The notes below the pieces were generated by a model. It was not told the DNA's origin. It saw only the letters and a list, made by a program, of their open reading frames with translations, and did not search any database. This document shows positions 52,997 through 64,000 of a stretch of DNA of 64,000 nt, in pieces. A program made the translations under genes and the position numbers. How positions within the stretch are numbered: the first letter of the stretch is position 1; each line of letters opens with the position of its first letter. The stretch is taken from assembly GCF_028882255.1 (NCBI RefSeq), contig NZ_JARBUY010000002.1, positions 260,342-324,341 on the forward strand, read 5' to 3'. The stretch is from Maribacter polysaccharolyticus. Lineage in GTDB: Bacteria; Bacteroidota; Bacteroidia; Flavobacteriales; Flavobacteriaceae.

Positions 52997-53210
52997 TAAA
53001 GTTATGGCAAAGTTTTTAATTACGGGGCGTTCAATATGGATTTAGGGGTTTTGAAATCGTTTTTGGCCGTGATGGATCTGTATTAAGGTACAACAAAGCC
53101 AATAATTCATTATCTTCATAAAGTGAGCAATTCCCTTTTTTAACAAAACTTGGATATTCAGTACTATGGGAAAACCGAAAGGGCGATTTGTTTTGGATAC
53201 TTATGGGAAT

Positions 53211-55304
53211 ATGGTGAATTTTAGGATATCTATCTTGATACTGTTGCTTTCCTTGCAGGCGTGCAATCAAACGGAGTCACCCCAAACTATAGGTCCAAAA
53301 CCCACAGAACGGCAGTTGGCTTGGCAGCAGTTAGAGTACTATGCTTTCGTACATTTTAATATGAACACCTTCACGAATCGGGAATGGGGCACCGGAAGGG
53401 AAAAACCCATGCAATTCGATCCCTCGGAGCTAGACACGCGACAATGGGCCAGAGTGGCCAAGGAAGCGGGTATGAAGGGGGTGATCCTATCGGTCAAGCA
53501 CCATGATGGGTTTTGCCTTTGGCCTACAAAAACAACGGAACATTCCATAAAAAATTCACCTTGGAAAGCAGGTAAGGGCGATGTGGTGAAGGATCTTTCG
53601 GAAGCCTGTAAAGCGTACGGACTTAAATTCGGGATATCGATTTCGCCTTGGGACCTAAATCAAGCTAAAGGTGGTGATCCTTCGGAATATGCTGCGGATT
53701 TTCATGAACAACTTCGGGAATTATTGACGAAATATGGCGAACTGTTCGAAGTTCGTTTCGATGTGGCCAATGGGGTCCCTGGGTTTTATGAAGACACGGA
53801 TGAAACCCGGAAAATCAAGGAAACAACTTATTTTGAATGGGAAAAGACCGTTGAAATCGTGCGCAAATTCCAACCCAAAGCAGCCATTTTCAGCGATGCC
53901 GGTCCTGATGTACGGTGGGTGGGCAACGAAGAGGGTTGGGCCAATGAGACCAATTGGAGTATTATGCGTAGGAATGAAATCTATCCTGGATGGCCACGCT
54001 ATGAAGAGTTGCGGTCGGGTCATGAGGATGGTACCCATTGGTTGCCGGCAGAGGCCAATGTTTCCATGCGCCCTAGTTGGTACTATCGCCCGGATGAGGA
54101 TCATCAGGTAAAGACCATACCCCAGTTATTGGATATTTACTATAATTCGGTCGGAAGAAATACAGCTTTACTGCTTAATCTACCTGTAGATACCCGCGGA
54201 TTGGTACATGAAAATGATGTAGACCGTTTGTTGGCCTTACGCAATCAATTGGACCTTGATTTTGGTGCCCCACTAATTGATGGGGTAAGTGCGATGGCCT
54301 CGGATGAACGCGGAAAAAACAACCAATTTGGGGCCTTGAATGTGAATGACGGGAACCCTGAAACCTATTGGGCCACCAATGATGGGGTTTCGAGTGCATC
54401 CTTGATCTTGGAATTTCAAGAACCCACGGAGGTAAACCGTATTCTATTGCAAGAATATATCCCTTTGGGACAACGGGTTAAGAATTTTATCGTATCGGCG
54501 GAAATCGATGGTAAATGGCGTGAAATCGATGGGCAAACCACTATAGGATACAAACGTATCCTTAGGTTCAAGACGGTAAAAACAGATAAGATAAAGGTGC
54601 AGATCATGGCGGCCAAAGGGCCAATAGCACTTTCCAATGTTGAAATGTATAGGGCGCCGAACCTTTTAACGATCCCGACCATTGTGCGAAGCCGGGATGG
54701 ATTGGTCACCTTAAGCGTACCCGATCCCAAAGTGGATGTGTATTATACGCTGGATGGTAGTAAACCTTCAACATCAAGTATGAAGTATGAAGGCCCTTTC
54801 GTGATCAAAAAGCCTACAACCGTTTCGTATTTTGCCCATGATCCGAAAACAAATGCACGCACTGTAAATAAACGAAAGGATTTTGATATTGCCAGGGCCA
54901 ATTGGGAGATCGTTTACACGACTACGGGCAATATGATCGAAGCTGAAAAATTAATAGATGACGACCCGAATACCTATTGGGCTTCGGACAAAGGGGTTTC
55001 TGCCATACAGGAAGTGATTATTGATTTGGGTAAACAGTATCCCTTAAAAGGATTCACGTATCTACCCATGCAAGAACGCAATCCCTTTGGAATAATTACC
55101 CACTTTGAGTTTTACGTAAGTACGGATAATAAACGATGGCGACGTGTGGTTCGGGGCGAATTCGATAATATCGTAGACCATCGGGTAGAACAAAAGGTCC
55201 CGTTTAAACGTACCCGTGCCAGGTATATAAAATTACGGGGCATCAAAGTTTCCGGGGACGATTATCGAACTTCTTTCGGGGAGGTAGGGGTATTGACCCG
55301 TTAG
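53211..55304 (+). CDS. GH29 alpha-L-fucosidase with two F5/8-type (discoidin) modules
   Basis: The 697-residue lipoprotein (SLQAC lipobox; ATG 53211 preferred to 53166) has a GH29 catalytic domain (about 25-345) with the WGTGREKPMQFDPSELDT region, LSVKHHDGFCLWPTKTTEHS, and a nucleophile-region Asp in FEVRFDVANG. A F5/8-C module follows (about 365-475), then a chitobiase-C-like strand region (VDVYYTLDGSKPSTSS) and a second F5/8-C module (about 565-690). It would cut fucose from glycans at the cell surface. The usual sequence around the nucleophile is WFDGAN; here it is RFDVAN. Confidence 0.85.
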   Translation: MVNFRISILILLLSLQACNQTESPQTIGPKPTERQLAWQQLEYYAFVHFNMNTFTNREWGTGREKPMQFDPSELDTRQWARVAKEAGMKGVILSVKHHDGFCLWPTKTTEHSIKNSPWKAGKGDVVKDLSEACKAYGLKFGISISPWDLNQAKGGDPSEYAADFHEQLRELLTKYGELFEVRFDVANGVPGFYEDTDETRKIKETTYFEWEKTVEIVRKFQPKAAIFSDAGPDVRWVGNEEGWANETNWSIMRRNEIYPGWPRYEELRSGHEDGTHWLPAEANVSMRPSWYYRPDEDHQVKTIPQLLDIYYNSVGRNTALLLNLPVDTRGLVHENDVDRLLALRNQLDLDFGAPLIDGVSAMASDERGKNNQFGALNVNDGNPETYWATNDGVSSASLILEFQEPTEVNRILLQEYIPLGQRVKNFIVSAEIDGKWREIDGQTTIGYKRILRFKTVKTDKIKVQIMAAKGPIALSNVEMYRAPNLLTIPTIVRSRDGLVTLSVPDPKVDVYYTLDGSKPSTSSMKYEGPFVIKKPTTVSYFAHDPKTNARTVNKRKDFDIARANWEIVYTTTGNMIEAEKLIDDDPNTYWASDKGVSAIQEVIIDLGKQYPLKGFTYLPMQERNPFGIITHFEFYVSTDNKRWRRVVRGEFDNIVDHRVEQKVPFKRTRARYIKLRGIKVSGDDYRTSFGEVGVLTR

Positions 55305-55837: not shown

Positions 55838-56473
55838 ATGCAAAAGCAAAGGCAATTGGCACTAGCCACTGAAAGGGAATTTGGCATAAATACGGAAATT
55901 GAAAATGATAGGAAGGGGAGGATCACGGCGGATGATTATTCAGAAAAGGTCATTTGGAAAAATTTAAAAAACGGTGATAAGAATGCATTGGGTCTTTTGT
56001 ACAATTTGCATATCGATGAACTATTCTCTTACGGTATCTGCCAATCCCAAGACCGTAATTATGTAATGGATTGTATCCATGATTTATTCGTGGATCTGTT
56101 CAAATACCGCAAAAGCATCTCAATTGTTGATGATGGTAAGTATTACCTATTTAAGTCTTTAAAGCGTAAAATAAACAGGAAATACAAGCGAAAGACCATA
56201 AACCTATCCCAAGGGTATGAATTTCTGGTTACCGATAATCCAACAAACCACACCAAATCCCACGAGGATACCATTATCAATGCCGAACATCGGGACGAAA
56301 AGAAGAAAAAGCTCGACGAGGCATTGAACCAGTTAAGTAAAAAACAAAGGGAAGGACTTTTTCTTAGATACAACCAAGAAAAAAGTTATGAAGAGATTTC
56401 CAAAATAATGGGAGTTTCCGTTGAAACTGCAAGAACAACGGTATACAGGGCCCTTAAATCCTTACGGCCCTAA
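55838..56473 (+). CDS. ECF RNA polymerase sigma factor
   Basis: The 211-residue protein has sigma region 2 (NGDKNALGLLYNLHIDELFSYGI and MDCIHDLFVDLFKYR) and region 4 (LNQLSKKQREGLFLRYNQEKSYEEISKIMGVSVETARTTV), the type linked to SusC/SusD loci in Bacteroidota. It should activate the adjacent fecR and SusCD genes when released from FecR. The N-terminal 40 residues are a Lys/Glu/Gln-rich extension. A fecR gene follows after 123 bases. Confidence 0.93.
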   Translation: MQKQRQLALATEREFGINTEIENDRKGRITADDYSEKVIWKNLKNGDKNALGLLYNLHIDELFSYGICQSQDRNYVMDCIHDLFVDLFKYRKSISIVDDGKYYLFKSLKRKINRKYKRKTINLSQGYEFLVTDNPTNHTKSHEDTIINAEHRDEKKKKLDEALNQLSKKQREGLFLRYNQEKSYEEISKIMGVSVETARTTVYRALKSLRP

Positions 56474-56511
56474 AACAAACACTATATTTTTCATATTTAT
56501 TACAAGATATC

Positions 56512-56529
56512 TGTCTATAAAAGTCAAAA
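56512..56529 (+). promoter_or_regulatory. Second copy of the TGTCTATAAAA element, before fecR
   Basis: TGTCTATAAAAGTCAAAA matches the element before the sigma gene in its first 11 bases and most of the remainder. It lies in the 123-base sigma-fecR gap, 67 bases before the fecR ATG, so the anti-sigma gene may have its own regulated promoter. Confidence 0.42.
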
Positions 56530-56596
56530 GGTTTCCTTTTATAGAAAGTAGGCGCAAACATATACTCTGGAAGTATAATTGTAGAATAGATTGACA

Positions 56597-57670
56597 ATGG
56601 ACAATAATAAGTCAGATAGTAAGGTAAAATATTTACCTATAACGGATAGTGAAAAAGATGATTTGGAAAAAAGGATCTTCGTCTCACTGGCCAAAAGTTC
56701 TAAACGAAGAAGGGGATTCCGTTTCATCAGTGGCATAGCGGCATCCATTGTTTTTATTAGTGGATTGGGAATGTATTATCATTACAATGTGACCAAGTCG
56801 GACGAAGGGTCGATCATTGATTATGTGAATACCACCAACAAGGAAAATGACCCAGGACATACTGAAGAGGTTACTTTGATTCTCGGAAAAGGGAAAGAGT
56901 TGAAGATCAATGGGGAAACATCCGAAATACAGTATTCAAGTTCAGGTGAAAAGATCGTTTTGGGTGCGACCAAGACCGTCAACCAAGAAACCGTTGATAA
57001 GAATGAGGTCGTGTACAACACTTTAATGGTTCCTTTTGGTAGAAGGTTGAAGACGGAGCTGTCAGATGGTAGTGTGGTTTGGTTGAACTCTGGTTCAAAG
57101 TTGGTTTATCCCGTTGTTTTCAAAAGTGATAAAAGGGAAGTGTACTTAGAAGGTGAGGCGATTTTCGAAGTGGCCCATAACAAGAAAAAACCTTTTCATG
57201 TAATTTCTGAAAACCAGGTTGTTGAGGTTTTGGGGACCGTCTTTGCGGTTACGAATTATAAAGACGAGAATTCTATAAACACGGTGCTTAAAAGTGGAAG
57301 TGTACAAATAAGTTACCTAAGCGGTACTTCGGCCTCGGAAGTTGCCGATAAGATCAAGATCACTCCGGGTACCAAGGCAAGTTTTGATAAGGAAACCAAA
57401 GGTATCGTCTCGGAAAAAGTGGATGTCGACACCTATTTTTCATGGCGGGAAGGGTTGTTGATCTTTAAGAACAACAACTTGCCTTATATAATGAAAAGGA
57501 TATCACGATACTATAATATGGAAGTTGCAATAGGTGACGAAGCCCAGAAGGAAGAGACGTTTTCTGGGTATTTGGATTTGAAGGATGACATAGGAAAGGT
57601 TATGGAAACCATTAAGGAGAGTACAGACTTGGAGTATGAGGTGAATGAAACAACTATAACAATCAAATAA
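56597..57670 (+). CDS. FecR-family anti-sigma factor
   Basis: The 357-residue protein has a cytosolic N-terminal 35 residues, one membrane span (about 36-53, FRFISGIAASIVFISGLGMYY), and a periplasmic FecR domain (LMVPFGRRLKTELSDGSVVWLNS, FEVAHNKKKPFHV). The C-terminal part ends in an STN-like segment (YNMEVAIGDEAQ). It should sequester the sigma factor. A TTG at 56591 also opens the frame; ATG 56597 is preferred. SusC follows after 130 bases. Confidence 0.95.
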   Translation: MDNNKSDSKVKYLPITDSEKDDLEKRIFVSLAKSSKRRRGFRFISGIAASIVFISGLGMYYHYNVTKSDEGSIIDYVNTTNKENDPGHTEEVTLILGKGKELKINGETSEIQYSSSGEKIVLGATKTVNQETVDKNEVVYNTLMVPFGRRLKTELSDGSVVWLNSGSKLVYPVVFKSDKREVYLEGEAIFEVAHNKKKPFHVISENQVVEVLGTVFAVTNYKDENSINTVLKSGSVQISYLSGTSASEVADKIKITPGTKASFDKETKGIVSEKVDVDTYFSWREGLLIFKNNNLPYIMKRISRYYNMEVAIGDEAQKEETFSGYLDLKDDIGKVMETIKESTDLEYEVNETTITIK

Positions 57671-57716
57671 ATGAACAAAGTATGATGTGAAACCAGCGTA
57701 TGTATTAAAGTAAAAA

Positions 57717-57769
57717 GCCAGAAAATGCGGCAACATCCTCTGGCAATTAAATCAACATTGCATTGTTGA
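57717..57769 (+). other. Two short hairpins in the susC leader
   Basis: GCCAGA (57717-57722) pairs with TCTGGC (57739-57744), and TCAACA (57752-57757) pairs with TGTTGA (57764-57769), in the 130-base gap between fecR and susC. They may shape the 5' end of the susC message or control its translation; no function is proven. Confidence 0.4.
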
Positions 57770-57800
57770 ACAGCAATATTAAATAACCTAAAACAAAATT

Positions 57801-60800
57801 ATGGAAAATATCCTTAGGGGCAGAATTTTTACGATTATGAGAATATTTTTATTACTGGTTGGAATTGGACTTACTTCGGCATATGCCAATTCGGTTCTAG
57901 CGCAAGAAAAAATTCAAATAGAAGTAAGAGGCGTGTCCGTTGAAGAATTTTTTAATGAAATTCAAAAGAACAGTAACTACGTTTTTTTCTACAAAGACGA
58001 TGTACTGAATACCGATAAGAAAATCTCATTGTCGGTTAAGAATGTAAAATTGTCCTTATTACTGGACAAGGCTTTTTTAAACACCGATTTGGATTATAAA
58101 ATAATCGGTAAACAGGTAATCGTTAAGAAAAATGACGATACATCCTCCATTTCGTCCGAAGAGCTTGATATGGCTTATCAGGAAATTACGGTAACGGGAA
58201 CCATTACCGATATGGACGGAATTCCACTTTCCGGGGCCAATGTCCTCATTAAAGGTACGGTAAAAGGAACCCAGGCCGATTTTGATGGGGTGTATGCCAT
58301 TGCCGCTAAAAAGGGGGATGTCTTGGAATTCTCCTATTTGGGGATGGTCACCAAAACCGTTGTCGTAGGTAATAGAAATGTGATCAATGTGACATTAGAG
58401 GAAGATGTCGCTTCGTTGGATGAGGTGGTTGTCGTTGGTTATGGTACTCAGACCAAAGAATCGATTACAGGTTCTGTTGGAGTTGTAAAAAGCGCTGAAT
58501 TGGAACAGGTTCCTTCATCTACCTTCGAACAATCCCTTAGGGGTAATTTAGCTGGTTTACAGGCCTCTGCTTCCGACGGTGCTCCTGGGGCCAATACCCA
58601 GATTAGGATCAGGGGTATTGGATCGATCAATGCATCCAGTGAGCCATTATATGTTATTGACGGTATTCCGATGCAATCGGGTAGTCAGGCCTTGAACGAT
58701 AACGATGGGGCTAGTTCCAACGTTATGGCATCCATAAACCCGAACGATATTGAAACCATCAGTGTACTTAAAGATGCCGCTTCAACGGCAATTTATGGAT
58801 CAAGAGGGGCCAATGGGGTTATTTTGATCACTACGAAAAGAGGGAAAACCGGTAAGGCGACCATTGAATTGAAAACCCTTACAGGATTCAACTCCCAAGC
58901 ATCCAAAGATATTTTAAAGCCTTTGAATGCCGCACAGTACAAAGAGTTATTTATAGAAGGATATGTGAACCAAGGCGATACTTATGAAGAAGCGCAGGCA
59001 AGATTGGATTCCAGGTACACACAACAAATAGATCCCTCTACAGGTGAGGCAACAGATACAAACTGGTTGGATGCCATTACCCGTACCGGTGTTACCCAAA
59101 GTTATGATTTGAGTGTAAACGGTGCTACGGATAATGTTAAGTACTTTATGTCCGCGGGTTATATGGACCAAGAGGGGTATATAATCGGTTATGGCTTTAA
59201 GAGGTATAGTACCCGTGCCAATTTGGAATACAAAGCAAGTGATTACTTGACTATATCGAATAATGTATCCATTTCGGATATAAAATCCAGTACGGCTCCA
59301 GATGGCGGTTCTTGGAACAACCCATTTAAAAGCACCTTGGAATTGTCTCCGCTTATCCCGATTTATGATGAAGATGGTGAGTACAATGCGGAGCACATCA
59401 ATTATTTTCCTATTGGTAGTAACCCGGTCGGAAGTTTAAGCGGTGACGATATTTGGGATACCAAGACTACAAGGGTCATAGATAACTTTGCGGTTACCGT
59501 AACGCCCATCAAGAATTTGGTGTTTAGGTCGCAATGGAACTTTGATGTATTGGATATTGATCAAACCCAATTTTATAACCGTCGTTATGGATCGGGATAT
59601 GATACTAACGGGTATGCCTATGAAGGAACCGTGTCAAGTAAGACATGGGTAGGTACACAGACTGTTGATTATAACCTTACATTCAATGAGGATCATTATT
59701 TCAATGTTCTTGGGGGTTACGAAGCACAACAGACCATTAAGGAAAATAGCTGGGCTTCCGGAACCAACTTCCCGAACGATATAGTCAAAACATTGAACAG
59801 TGCTTCTTCTGAATTTGCTGTAGGGGGGTCAAAATCCGAATATACCTTTAACTCTATGTTCGTTAGGGCCAATTATAATTATGCCAGTAAATATTTCCTT
59901 TCCGGTAGTATTCGACGAGATGGTTCTTCAAGGTTTGGTGAAGAGAACAGATATGGTACTTTTTACTCTGTTGGTGCTAGCTGGAACATAAACAAGGAGG
60001 ATCTTTTTGATGATCTTACGTTTATTAATATCCTTAAGTTGCGAAGTTCATTTGGTGTTACTGGTAACGCCGCTATTGGGAATTTTGCTTCCCTAGGGCT
60101 GTATACTTACGGCGAGGATTATGATGGGTCTCCAGGTGGTAGTCCTTTACAACTTGAAAATTCGGACCTTACCTGGGAAACACAAGAGAACTTCAATATC
60201 GGATTGGATTTTGGATTCTTCAACAAGGTAAATGGTACGGTTGAATACTTCAAAAGGGTTTCTTCCGACCTGATCTTGGATGTGCCTATCTCCCAAACAA
60301 CCGGATTTACCGAGCTTACCCAAAATTTTGGGGAGATGACCAATTCAGGTTTGGAGCTTTCTGTTAATGCCGAGATCATCAATAAAAATGATTTTAGATG
60401 GAGCCTTGGGTTCAATACGACATTTTTGAAAAATGAAATTACCAAGTTGACCGAAGATTATACCGATGGGGCCTATAGAAGGCAGGTAGGACAGGATTTC
60501 CAGTCTTATTACATGTATGATTGGGCCGGTGTAGATCAAACCAATGGGGATCCACAATGGTACACCGATGAAACACGCACCACGATAACCAATGATATTG
60601 GGGATGCAGAACGCTTTTTGGTCGGAAAGTCGGCTACCCCGGATTTCTACGGTGGGTTCAATACCGCTTTTTCCTACAAAGGACTTAGTTTAAGTGCCAA
60701 CTTCATGTACTCTTATGGTAACTACCTTTTTGATAGTAGGGCAAGGGGATCCTTGGGAGATGGAAGGTTGACTCCTAGAAGTACAGCGACTTATTTGTTC

Positions 60801-61136
60801 GAAAACAGATGGGTAGAAGGAAAAACCGATGCGTTGTTTCCTAAATTCGTTTGGGGCGGACAATCCGGAAGTAACCAGGCCAATCAAACAAGGTGGCTTT
60901 ATGATGGTAGTTATATGCGTTTAAAGGATTTGACCATAGCCTATAATTTACCTGAAAAATTGACATCCTTGTTAAATGTCGGTTCTATTAGAATGTATGC
61001 GAGGGGCACTAATATCTTAACTTTCACAAAACATAAAGGTTTGTATATAGATCCAGAACAAGCTATAAATGGAAGCTATGTAGGAACTACTCCTGCAATG
61101 AAAACAATTTCTTTAGGGTTGGATATTAAATTGTAA
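57801..61136 (+). CDS. SusC/RagA-type TonB-linked outer-membrane transporter with STN domain
   Basis: The 1111-residue protein has a signal peptide (to about residue 35), an STN signalling domain (about 40-110, EIQKNSNYVFFYKDDVLNT), a carboxypeptidase-like domain (about 133-210, ITVTGTITDMDGIPLSG), a plug with VVVVGYGTQTKESITGSVG (the SusC/RagA family start of the plug) and SEPLYVIDGIPM, and a large barrel. With SusD it forms a TonB-driven importer; STN lets it signal to FecR. SusD follows after 16 bases. Confidence 0.96.
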   Translation: MENILRGRIFTIMRIFLLLVGIGLTSAYANSVLAQEKIQIEVRGVSVEEFFNEIQKNSNYVFFYKDDVLNTDKKISLSVKNVKLSLLLDKAFLNTDLDYKIIGKQVIVKKNDDTSSISSEELDMAYQEITVTGTITDMDGIPLSGANVLIKGTVKGTQADFDGVYAIAAKKGDVLEFSYLGMVTKTVVVGNRNVINVTLEEDVASLDEVVVVGYGTQTKESITGSVGVVKSAELEQVPSSTFEQSLRGNLAGLQASASDGAPGANTQIRIRGIGSINASSEPLYVIDGIPMQSGSQALNDNDGASSNVMASINPNDIETISVLKDAASTAIYGSRGANGVILITTKRGKTGKATIELKTLTGFNSQASKDILKPLNAAQYKELFIEGYVNQGDTYEEAQARLDSRYTQQIDPSTGEATDTNWLDAITRTGVTQSYDLSVNGATDNVKYFMSAGYMDQEGYIIGYGFKRYSTRANLEYKASDYLTISNNVSISDIKSSTAPDGGSWNNPFKSTLELSPLIPIYDEDGEYNAEHINYFPIGSNPVGSLSGDDIWDTKTTRVIDNFAVTVTPIKNLVFRSQWNFDVLDIDQTQFYNRRYGSGYDTNGYAYEGTVSSKTWVGTQTVDYNLTFNEDHYFNVLGGYEAQQTIKENSWASGTNFPNDIVKTLNSASSEFAVGGSKSEYTFNSMFVRANYNYASKYFLSGSIRRDGSSRFGEENRYGTFYSVGASWNINKEDLFDDLTFINILKLRSSFGVTGNAAIGNFASLGLYTYGEDYDGSPGGSPLQLENSDLTWETQENFNIGLDFGFFNKVNGTVEYFKRVSSDLILDVPISQTTGFTELTQNFGEMTNSGLELSVNAEIINKNDFRWSLGFNTTFLKNEITKLTEDYTDGAYRRQVGQDFQSYYMYDWAGVDQTNGDPQWYTDETRTTITNDIGDAERFLVGKSATPDFYGGFNTAFSYKGLSLSANFMYSYGNYLFDSRARGSLGDGRLTPRSTATYLFENRWVEGKTDALFPKFVWGGQSGSNQANQTRWLYDGSYMRLKDLTIAYNLPEKLTSLLNVGSIRMYARGTNILTFTKHKGLYIDPEQAINGSYVGTTPAMKTISLGLDIKL

Positions 61137-61152
61137 ACTAAAAAAAAGACTA

Positions 61153-62553
61153 ATGAAAAAATATAATAAAATATTATTGTTGATCATGATAGGGTTTTTC
61201 TTGTCATGTTCGGAATCATTTTTAGAGGTTAGCCCACAGGATTCGGTTTCAAATGACGAAGCTTTAACGAGTTTGGAAGATCTTGAGACTTCCATAAGCG
61301 GTGTATATGACGAATTCCAAGGGGCCTATTACTATGGTCGGTATATGTTGTTGATTCCCGATGTTATGGCCGATGATGTCAAACAAAATGAACAAGCCAA
61401 TAGGGTTGTTGATTTTGCACAACATGTGGTAAGTGTAGATGATTCCCAGGCAAGTGCTTTGTGGACGGGGTTGTACTATACCAATAATGCCCTTAACAAT
61501 ATTATCAATTCGGATATAGAAGTGACCGAGTCAACCCAGGACGAGAAGGATCATATTATGGGAGAAGCCTATGCTTTAAGGGGGTTGATCTATTTTGATT
61601 TGGTAAGATTGTTTGCAAATCATTATACCTACACGGCCGATGCAAGCCATTTGGGCGTGCCGATCATCCTTGATTTCGATTATACTTTGGAGCCGGAGAG
61701 GAATACGGTAGAAGAAGTTTATGATCAAGTGATTTCGGATATGACTACGGCATTGACTTTGATCGATGATACCTCAAGGACGGGAAATTCCAATTCGCTT
61801 TCATCCACAGCGGTCAAAGCCTTGTTGTCAAGAGTGTATTTGTATAAGGAAGACTGGTCAAATGCGGAAGCCATGGCCACTGAAGTCATTGAAGCCGGCT
61901 ATAGCTTGGTCGATAATGCCGATTATTTAACGTTATGGTCCGAGGATAATAGCTCTGAATCGATCTTTGAAATATCCCAGACCGAGTCCGATAACCAAGG
62001 GGGTAACTGTTTGGGAGCCATGTATGTCGTTGATGGTTATGGGGATTATTTACCGTCCGATGACGTGGTGTCTTTGTATGATGCCGATGATGCCCGTTTA
62101 CAGGTTTTTATTGAAGATGAACTTTTGGCTGGTGATTATGCCCCATATAGGATGAATAAATACCCTGATGTATTGGGGTATGACAATACAAAGGTCATTC
62201 GTCTTGCTGAAGTTTATCTGATCAGGGCTGAGGCCCGGGCCCAATTAGGTACCGATATTGCCGGTGCCCAAGAAGATTTGGACATGGTTCGCCAAAGGGC
62301 CCTGCCAACCGCAGCAAATGTTACGGCCACCGGAGATGAACTGTTGGAGGAAATAATGCTTGAAAGAAGGTTGGAACTTTGTTTTGAGGGACATAGGTTG
62401 TGGGATTTAATGAGATACAAGGAGGATATCGTAAGAAACGAGTGTACTGCCAGTATTTGCTATATACCCTACGGCGATGACACCAATATATTGCCGATAC
62501 CCCAAGATGAAACAGATGTAAATCCTAACATTACACCAAATCCAGGATACTAG
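61153..62553 (+). CDS. RagB/SusD-family substrate-binding lipoprotein
   Basis: The 466-residue lipoprotein (IGFFLSC lipobox, Cys about residue 19) has the SusD helical layout with TPR-like repeats: LWTGLYYTNNALNNIIN near 110, GEAYALRGLIYFDLVRLFAN near 140, ALLSRVYLYKEDWSNAEAMA near 230, and the C-terminal IRLAEVYLIRAEARAQLG and RRLELCFEGHRLWDLMRYK typical of RagB/SusD. It lids the SusC barrel on the cell surface. The ligand is unknown; linkage to an M19-like enzyme suggests peptides. Confidence 0.95.
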   Translation: MKKYNKILLLIMIGFFLSCSESFLEVSPQDSVSNDEALTSLEDLETSISGVYDEFQGAYYYGRYMLLIPDVMADDVKQNEQANRVVDFAQHVVSVDDSQASALWTGLYYTNNALNNIINSDIEVTESTQDEKDHIMGEAYALRGLIYFDLVRLFANHYTYTADASHLGVPIILDFDYTLEPERNTVEEVYDQVISDMTTALTLIDDTSRTGNSNSLSSTAVKALLSRVYLYKEDWSNAEAMATEVIEAGYSLVDNADYLTLWSEDNSSESIFEISQTESDNQGGNCLGAMYVVDGYGDYLPSDDVVSLYDADDARLQVFIEDELLAGDYAPYRMNKYPDVLGYDNTKVIRLAEVYLIRAEARAQLGTDIAGAQEDLDMVRQRALPTAANVTATGDELLEEIMLERRLELCFEGHRLWDLMRYKEDIVRNECTASICYIPYGDDTNILPIPQDETDVNPNITPNPGY

Positions 62554-62619: not shown

Positions 62620-62678
62620 TCACTATAAATCAAAGTGGTGGTTTTCAAATTTATTTAAATTAAGTGGATAACAGAAAA

Positions 62679-63824
62679 ATGAAAAAAACACGAAGAAACC
62701 TAACCAAAATGCTATCTATGGGAGTTCTTTTCCCAGGTCAGGTGGCACAGTCCCTTTCCTCGATTTTAGAATCCATATCACCAGAGGAACATTCCTTTGA
62801 TCTCTCGGTTGAGAATGGTATTAAAACCAACATTGAAAAGCTTTATAAGAACGCCATAGTCAATGATGGCCTGATCATTTCCCGAAATTGGAACGATGAT
62901 TCGTTCAAGGCCCTTGCCCAATCGGGATATACGGGATTCAATGCTTCAGTGGATTCAGGAAGTTTGGAGAAAGGCATGAAAAACTTAACTCAATGGCAAA
63001 CCATCATAAAGGAAAATCCCGATCGATTGATCTTGGCAACAAGTGCCAATGATTATATCAAAGCCAAGAAAGAAGGTAAAGTAGCTGTTCTACTCGGTTT
63101 TCAGAATTCCACTATGGTTGGGAATTCGATCAAAAACCTGGATACCCTCTATGATGCCGGTATGCGTTGGATGCAATTGACATACAATCAGCGTAACTTA
63201 TTGGGTGACGGAAGCACCGAAAGGACAAATTGTGGCTTATCGGATTTTGGCCTCGAGGTGGTTGAGCGCATGAACGAATTGGGGATTATAATAGACCTGT
63301 CACATTGCGGTGAACAAACCACTAACGAAGGGATTGAGTTCAGTAAGACCCCAGTTTCGATAAATCACTCCATGTGTGAGGCACTGCACAGAAATCATCC
63401 AAGGGCCAAGACGGACGAACAGATCAAGGCCATGGCCGATAAAGGAGGTATCATAGGGATTATCTGTTTGGGATATATGATCGGACCGAACTTGGGTACC
63501 GATACGACCTTGGAAACCTATGTGGATCATATCGATCATGCCGTTAAGATTGGCGGAATCGATCATGTAGGGGTAGCCTCGGATTTTGCCATTCAAGGAT
63601 TGGAAGCAACAGGGGCAACCCGTGAAAATTGGTATGTGCCGCGCTTAACCCGTTTTAAGCCATCGTATAAGGTACAATGGCCACCGTGGATTCCTGAACT
63701 CGATAAACCGGATCGCTATTTACAAGTCGCCAAAGTCTTGGACAAAAGGGGCTACAGTACCGGGGATATCGAAAAGATATTGGGTCAAAACTGGTTGCGC
63801 TTTTATAACGAAACGTTGAAATAG
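62679..63824 (+). CDS. M19-family (membrane dipeptidase-like) protein with depleted metal site
   Basis: The 381-residue protein (ATG 62679; frame opens with GTG at 62664) has a twin-Arg start (KKTRRNLTKML), suggesting Tat export. The M19 fold is clear: NCGLSDFGLEVVERMNELG, IIIDLSHCGEQTT, SINHSMCEALHRNHPRA, KGGIIGI and DHVGVASDFA. Metal-ligand His are kept in DLSHCG and INHSM. The N-terminal HxD pair is absent (DGLIISRNW) and the bridging Glu is Gln in LLGFQNS. This fits an atypical M19 subgroup. It probably acts on the SusCD-imported material. Confidence 0.88.
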   Translation: MKKTRRNLTKMLSMGVLFPGQVAQSLSSILESISPEEHSFDLSVENGIKTNIEKLYKNAIVNDGLIISRNWNDDSFKALAQSGYTGFNASVDSGSLEKGMKNLTQWQTIIKENPDRLILATSANDYIKAKKEGKVAVLLGFQNSTMVGNSIKNLDTLYDAGMRWMQLTYNQRNLLGDGSTERTNCGLSDFGLEVVERMNELGIIIDLSHCGEQTTNEGIEFSKTPVSINHSMCEALHRNHPRAKTDEQIKAMADKGGIIGIICLGYMIGPNLGTDTTLETYVDHIDHAVKIGGIDHVGVASDFAIQGLEATGATRENWYVPRLTRFKPSYKVQWPPWIPELDKPDRYLQVAKVLDKRGYSTGDIEKILGQNWLRFYNETLK

Positions 63825-63871: not shown

Positions 63872-64000
63872 ATGAAAAACCTAATAACCACCTCACTTTT
63901 AATTCTATTTTTGACCATTAGTTGTAAAGAAACAAACCATACAGATCCTACAGGTTCCCAAGAAGTAGTGTACGAGGTGGTTTTTCGGGAAAGCCTGGCG
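63872..64000 (+). CDS. Lipoprotein, N-terminal part only
   Basis: The frame starts at ATG 63872 with a lipoprotein signal (MKNLITTSLLILFLTISC, Cys at residue 18) and runs to the window edge. Only 25 residues follow the Cys (SQEVVYEVVFRESLA at the end), too few to assign. It follows the M19 gene after 47 bases in the same direction and is probably part of the same locus. Confidence 0.7.
   Translation, partial: MKNLITTSLLILFLTISCKETNHTDPTGSQEVVYEVVFRESLA

Follow-up and report, generated by a model that had tools for sequence, protein, structure and literature searches.

An M19-fold protein from Maribacter with an altered metal site, encoded between SusCD-type uptake genes and an amidohydrolase

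The locus and the encoded protein

The window, a 64,000-nucleotide stretch of contig NZ_JARBUY010000002.1 from Maribacter polysaccharolyticus, ends with an uptake locus, a gene of the M19 family and the beginning of an amidohydrolase gene. The relevant features are:

55838–56473, + strand: ECF-type sigma factor (sigma-70 region 4)
56591–57670, + strand: FecR anti-sigma
57801–61136, + strand: SusC-like TonB-dependent receptor
61153–62553, + strand: SusD-like lipoprotein
62679–63824, + strand: M19-fold protein of the GFQN branch, 381 aa, without HxD and with Gln replacing the bridging Glu
62679–62760, + strand: likely twin-arginine (Tat) signal, MKKTRRNLTKMLSMGVLFPG... (clade consensus RRxFxKxLSLGA)
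62865–62891, + strand: DGLIISRNW, residues 63–71, strand-1 region without HxD (L65, I67)
63102–63104, + strand: Gln142 codon, bridging Glu in canonical M19 (multiple alignment; pairwise against 3id7)
63183–63185, + strand: Tyr169 codon, usually His in canonical M19 (multiple alignment)
63303–63305, + strand: His209 codon, first late His, kept (multiple alignment)
63366–63368, + strand: His230 codon, second late His, kept (multiple alignment)
63582–63584, + strand: Asp302 codon, catalytic-type Asp, kept (multiple alignment)
63606–63704, + strand: segment conserved in sequence across the clade, residues 310–342, ...GATRENWYVPRLTRFKPSYKVQWPPWIPELD
63872–64000, + strand: start of a 666-aa amidohydrolase lipoprotein that runs past the window (metal ligands HxH, K, H, H and D kept in relatives)

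Adjacent SusC and SusD genes with their regulators (55838–62553) constitute a SusCD-type uptake locus. The order ECF–FecR–SusC–SusD–M19, or the part of it held by the contig, was found in 20 loci, and those with a named host were all Flavobacteriaceae. The position after SusCD, from which a preliminary description of this DNA had suggested imported material, is thus a real and recurring linkage, but one confined to Flavobacteriaceae rather than general to the clade. An alpha-L-fucosidase family protein with F5/8 domains is encoded just upstream of the operon (53166–55304); it was dropped as an operon member because no related locus shares it. In two Maribacter loci the ECF sigma factor is preceded by a second RidA-like gene (L049:2222–2809 and L051:2200–2787).

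The M19 reading frame starts with ATG at 62679 and encodes 381 aa. An in-frame GTG at 62664 would give 386 aa; the alignment of relatives begins at the ATG. The product matched Pfam Peptidase_M19 (PF01244, E=1e-77), which places it in the family by profile, and an NCBIfam search returned no family above cut-off. R5, R6 and K10 are nearly invariant among 55 sequences. Since the N-termini are of the RRxFxK type, the protein is probably exported by a Tat-type route. By eye, a relative from bacterium HR33 has a clear SRREFIR Tat motif together with the same site pattern.

Metal-site residues and their conservation

Ligand columns were read in a multiple alignment with 61 canonical M19 rows (H/D/E/H/H/D). 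The preliminary description had proposed that the HxD pair is absent, that Gln stands in place of the bridging Glu, and that the late His pair and the Asp of VASDF (residues 299–303) remain. All three points held. The HxD columns are occupied by L65 and I67, Gln142 of LLGFQNS (residues 138–144) fills the Glu column, and H209, H230 and D302 are unchanged, as is Arg242. Substitute ligands in the HxD columns had been named as the case against this proposal; none was found, both columns holding hydrophobic residues. Tyr169 is a further change beyond those described earlier, in a column where most canonical rows have His and one canonical sub-branch has Trp. When Sco3058 (3id7) is aligned pairwise, its LMGAEGG falls opposite LLGFQNS, with Gln opposite Glu. 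Ligand misalignment was ruled out as the cause of the altered site, pairwise phmmer and multiple alignment being in agreement. The protein therefore keeps the late His pair and late Asp of a canonical two-zinc M19 site without its HxD and bridging Glu, and shows the full pattern of the GFQN (2i5g-type) branch: no HxD, and Gln, Tyr, His, His and Asp at the site.

One scan of 84,980 species genomes yielded 64 related loci. These came mostly from marine Bacteroidota (Maribacter, Muricauda, Arenibacter, Tamlana, Formosa, Saprospiraceae, Cyclobacteriaceae and others), and the same scan listed Paraglaciecola, Alteromonas and bacterium HR33. The clade alignment comprised 66 rows, namely the window protein and 65 relatives, one of them truncated. 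Gln142 was kept in 66/66 rows, and H209, H230 and D302 each in 65/65, the remaining row being the truncated one. Position 65 was L, I or M and position 67 was I or T in every row with a residue there, none of which had His at 65 or Asp at 67. Judged from these alignments, the altered metal site is not due to chance. A pseudogene or sequencing error was ruled out by conservation of the pattern in the 65 relatives. The close clade is sparse: an even sample of 395 Bacteroidota genomes contained it in two, Maribacter polysaccharolyticus itself and one other (G161, 69% identical). Other matches in that sample were 31–43% identical and included canonical M19 proteins.

An ordinary two-zinc dipeptidase could still result if other residues, for example the conserved Cys210 or Cys233 close to the late His pair, supplied the missing ligands. 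The fold is that of dipeptidases; no complete clade row lacks Cys233, and hardly any lacks Cys210. However, every row has a hydrophobic residue (or Thr) at 65 and 67, and 2i5g-type relatives have Val at 210 and Pro at 233, so these cysteines are not a branch-wide ligand replacement. We regard a two-zinc enzyme of this kind as quite improbable.

Fold and place in the M19 family

The structure prediction suggested earlier as a check was run with AlphaFold2 from a 55-sequence alignment (mean pLDDT 84.7, with residues 1–48 of low confidence). It gave an M19 barrel whose best fold match was the GFQN-type structure 2i5g (Z 42.5, 2.2 Å over 316 residues). True dipeptidases and other solved M19 proteins followed at Z 34–40, and other amidohydrolases at about 17. 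On this model the barrel is the M19 fold. The 2i5g entry ('amidohydrolase', Pseudomonas aeruginosa, solved 2006) is also the best match by sequence (E 2e-50, ~31% identical) and shares DGLII for HxD, GFQN, Tyr, His, His and Asp. It differs in that its chain starts at the barrel with no signal region, and in lacking both Cys210/Cys233 and the conserved 310–342 segment of the window clade. That segment is a possible substrate lid. The canonical dipeptidases human DPEP1 (1itq), Sco3058 (3id7) and GliJ (5lwz) have the fold (Z about 39), late His pair, Arg and Asp in common with the window protein, in which the HxD, bridging Glu and usual His are replaced.

A tree was built from 96 distinct M19 rows, 61 of them with HxD, after removal of the trait columns. 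Loss of HxD mapped to a single change, with none of 500 shuffles as low; support for the split was 90, which falls short of the program's threshold of 95 and is not decisive, and 98 when the trait columns were included, both being quick trees. Pseudomonadota plasmid members and 2i5g share the lost HxD, the Gln and the Tyr with the window protein. The branch itself is therefore not new. The HxD-less side is diverse, since some of its deeper rows differ at the site (Cys-x-Ile with Glu, Tyr-x-Phe with Asn, His-x-Cys with Glu); several of its rows are long branches of unsure placement. Alignment, tree and the 2i5g match together bear out the earlier suggestion of a GFQN side branch of M19 that includes this protein. 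By these sequence comparisons, the window gene belongs to an old, deep and widespread side branch. Separately, four M19 relatives with Tyr-x-Phe/Asn (L042), His-x-Cys/Glu (L045), Cys-x-Pro/Gln (L046) and Cys-x-Ile/Glu (L149) have sequences that suggest further altered-site lineages.

Conserved neighbours and proposed function

Downstream of the M19 gene and beyond the window lie the 666-aa amidohydrolase lipoprotein, an FG-GAP protein and a second amidohydrolase (683 aa), followed by a metallo-beta-lactamase-fold protein, a creatininase-family protein and a DASS symporter. An amidohydrolase was found at most 1.8 kb downstream of the M19 gene in 52 of the 63 testable loci, usually across a gap of <120 bases. 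The neighbouring amidohydrolases retained HxH, His and Asp in 70/70 sequences, with Lys at the bridging position also in 70/70. RidA occurred within 8 kb of the M19 gene in 31/57 loci. These RidA neighbours keep the HARAA segment, some with a lipoprotein-type signal and some starting without one, and their nearest solved relative is 3d01. Amidohydrolase and RidA were both absent from nine loci with at least 4 kb of downstream sequence, that of the paralog in the same genome included, and the partnership is therefore not obligatory. This paralog (G000:C11:107654–108796; L037:9655–10800) is 75% identical, stands without SusCD, amidohydrolase or RidA neighbours, and reads QF rather than QN after the Gln. 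In bacterium HR33 the gene next to M19 reads by eye as an amidase-signature protein. The SusCD linkage is limited to Flavobacteriaceae; the broader conserved partner is the amidohydrolase lipoprotein. Its linkage, together with that of the frequent RidA-type imine deaminase, suggests breakdown of a small amide or imide. Some loci additionally encode an Asp/Glu racemase, an asparaginase-like protein or a PALP enzyme. An aspartate-like substrate, guessed from these genes and the DASS symporter, was kept as a lead only, since they occur in a minority of loci.

The complete metal site of the neighbouring amidohydrolase would allow that enzyme to do the chemistry, leaving the M19 protein metal-free, either as a non-hydrolytic binding or scaffolding partner or as an enzyme that works without metal. 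The change of HxD pair, bridging Glu and usual His in every member fits such a role. For a pocket without chemistry, however, the retention of His209, His230, Arg242 and Asp302 in essentially all clade members and in the wider branch including 2i5g is unexpected, and we consider this account unlikely.

Branch members in other bacteria have different surroundings. The Sphaerotilus GFQN member sits with glyA, DUF5943 and dgcA-/dgcB-like genes near glycine-betaine genes, those of Ruegeria and Phaeobacter adjoin sarcosine oxidase and a BCCT transporter, and that of Paracoccus adjoins DUF5943 and an Asp/Glu racemase. The 2i5g protein is probably the pepD product (PA5396) of P. aeruginosa; a literature search for 2I5G and PA5396 found nothing, and one for structural work on DPEP3 brought up nothing of use. 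A predicted dipeptidase gene, pepD, adjoins dgcAB in P. aeruginosa and V. natriegens, with no function assigned there (PMC12093977). The Sphaerotilus locus has the same kind of arrangement as this pepD–dgcAB operon, which differs from the Maribacter M19 operon. No biochemical role for the GFQN branch was found assigned in the literature examined; as far as we found, the branch is known by structure and not by function.

The glycine-betaine/dimethylglycine and sarcosine clusters of the Pseudomonadota members have no known dipeptide step (PMC12093977), and PvdM, an uncharacterised periplasmic enzyme of M19 fold (3b40), is essential for pyoverdine formation (PMC6206403). With PvdM, for which no dipeptidase role is known, as a parallel, the branch might catalyse a reaction of another type, such as an isomerase, lyase or maturation step. 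The linkage of the Bacteroidota clade to amide hydrolases and uptake genes fits hydrolysis instead, and a non-hydrolytic reaction seems doubtful.

The site is altered alike in all close relatives examined and the usual neighbour is an amide-cutting enzyme; for these reasons the protein is probably a specialised enzyme for a small amide rather than an ordinary dipeptidase. Our leading, still tentative reading, with a probability of roughly 45%, is an exported amide or imide hydrolase with at most one metal, at the beta position, and not a normal dipeptidase. Counted in its favour were the altered site and His209, His230 and Asp302, all fully conserved in the clade, the single-change loss of HxD on the tree, the good barrel model and the amidohydrolase/RidA linkage. 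With the first-metal-holding HxD pair and the bridging Glu lost and the late His pair, Arg and late Asp kept, a single metal would sit at His209/His230, its third contact coming from Gln142 or a residue close by, and Asp302 would serve as acid-base. Judged from the neighbour genes, the substrate would be a small amide or imide and not a normal dipeptide. Flavobacteriaceae would import this material via the SusCD pair under ECF sigma/FecR control; in neighbouring steps the amidohydrolase lipoprotein would cleave an amide and RidA would remove a reactive imine or enamine.

The one-metal hydrolase draws on analogy with amidohydrolases that function on a single metal. In E. coli NagA, QxN takes the place of HxH and one metal is present (PMC6016474), and OngB has one zinc, only at the beta site (PMC12017989). 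In NagA and OngB/D-aminoacylase the first metal position is lost or unused, the second is kept and Asp serves as acid-base (PMC6016474, PMC12017989); they belong to different families, and the third ligand of their remaining site is Glu or Cys, in contrast to Gln in the window protein. Since Gln is an unusual ligand at the Glu position, what remains of the site may not suffice to bind metal; by this comparison Gln142 may act as a ligand weakly or not at all.

Dehydropeptidase activity is known for M19 enzymes. That it yields enamines, the type of compound removed by RidA, and would so link M19 and RidA, is an idea rather than a result. Speculatively, the one-metal M19 enzyme, the lipoprotein amidohydrolase and RidA might form a catabolic system that breaks down a marine amide or imide step by step, partly outside the cytoplasm, and in which the first two release an imine or enamine that RidA clears.

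Branch proteins are annotated plainly as 'dipeptidase' in many genomes despite the lost HxD and bridging Glu. Assigning them correctly would alter such annotations and put to the test how a two-metal site shrinks while its fold persists, and the conserved M19–amidohydrolase–RidA neighbourhood offers a concrete handle on the substrate. A different cassette surrounds M19 in a group of marine uncultured Bacteroidetes loci (L095, L096, L099, L100, L102, L103 and L106), with a Dabb-domain protein, a TIM-barrel protein and often a metallo-beta-lactamase-fold protein.
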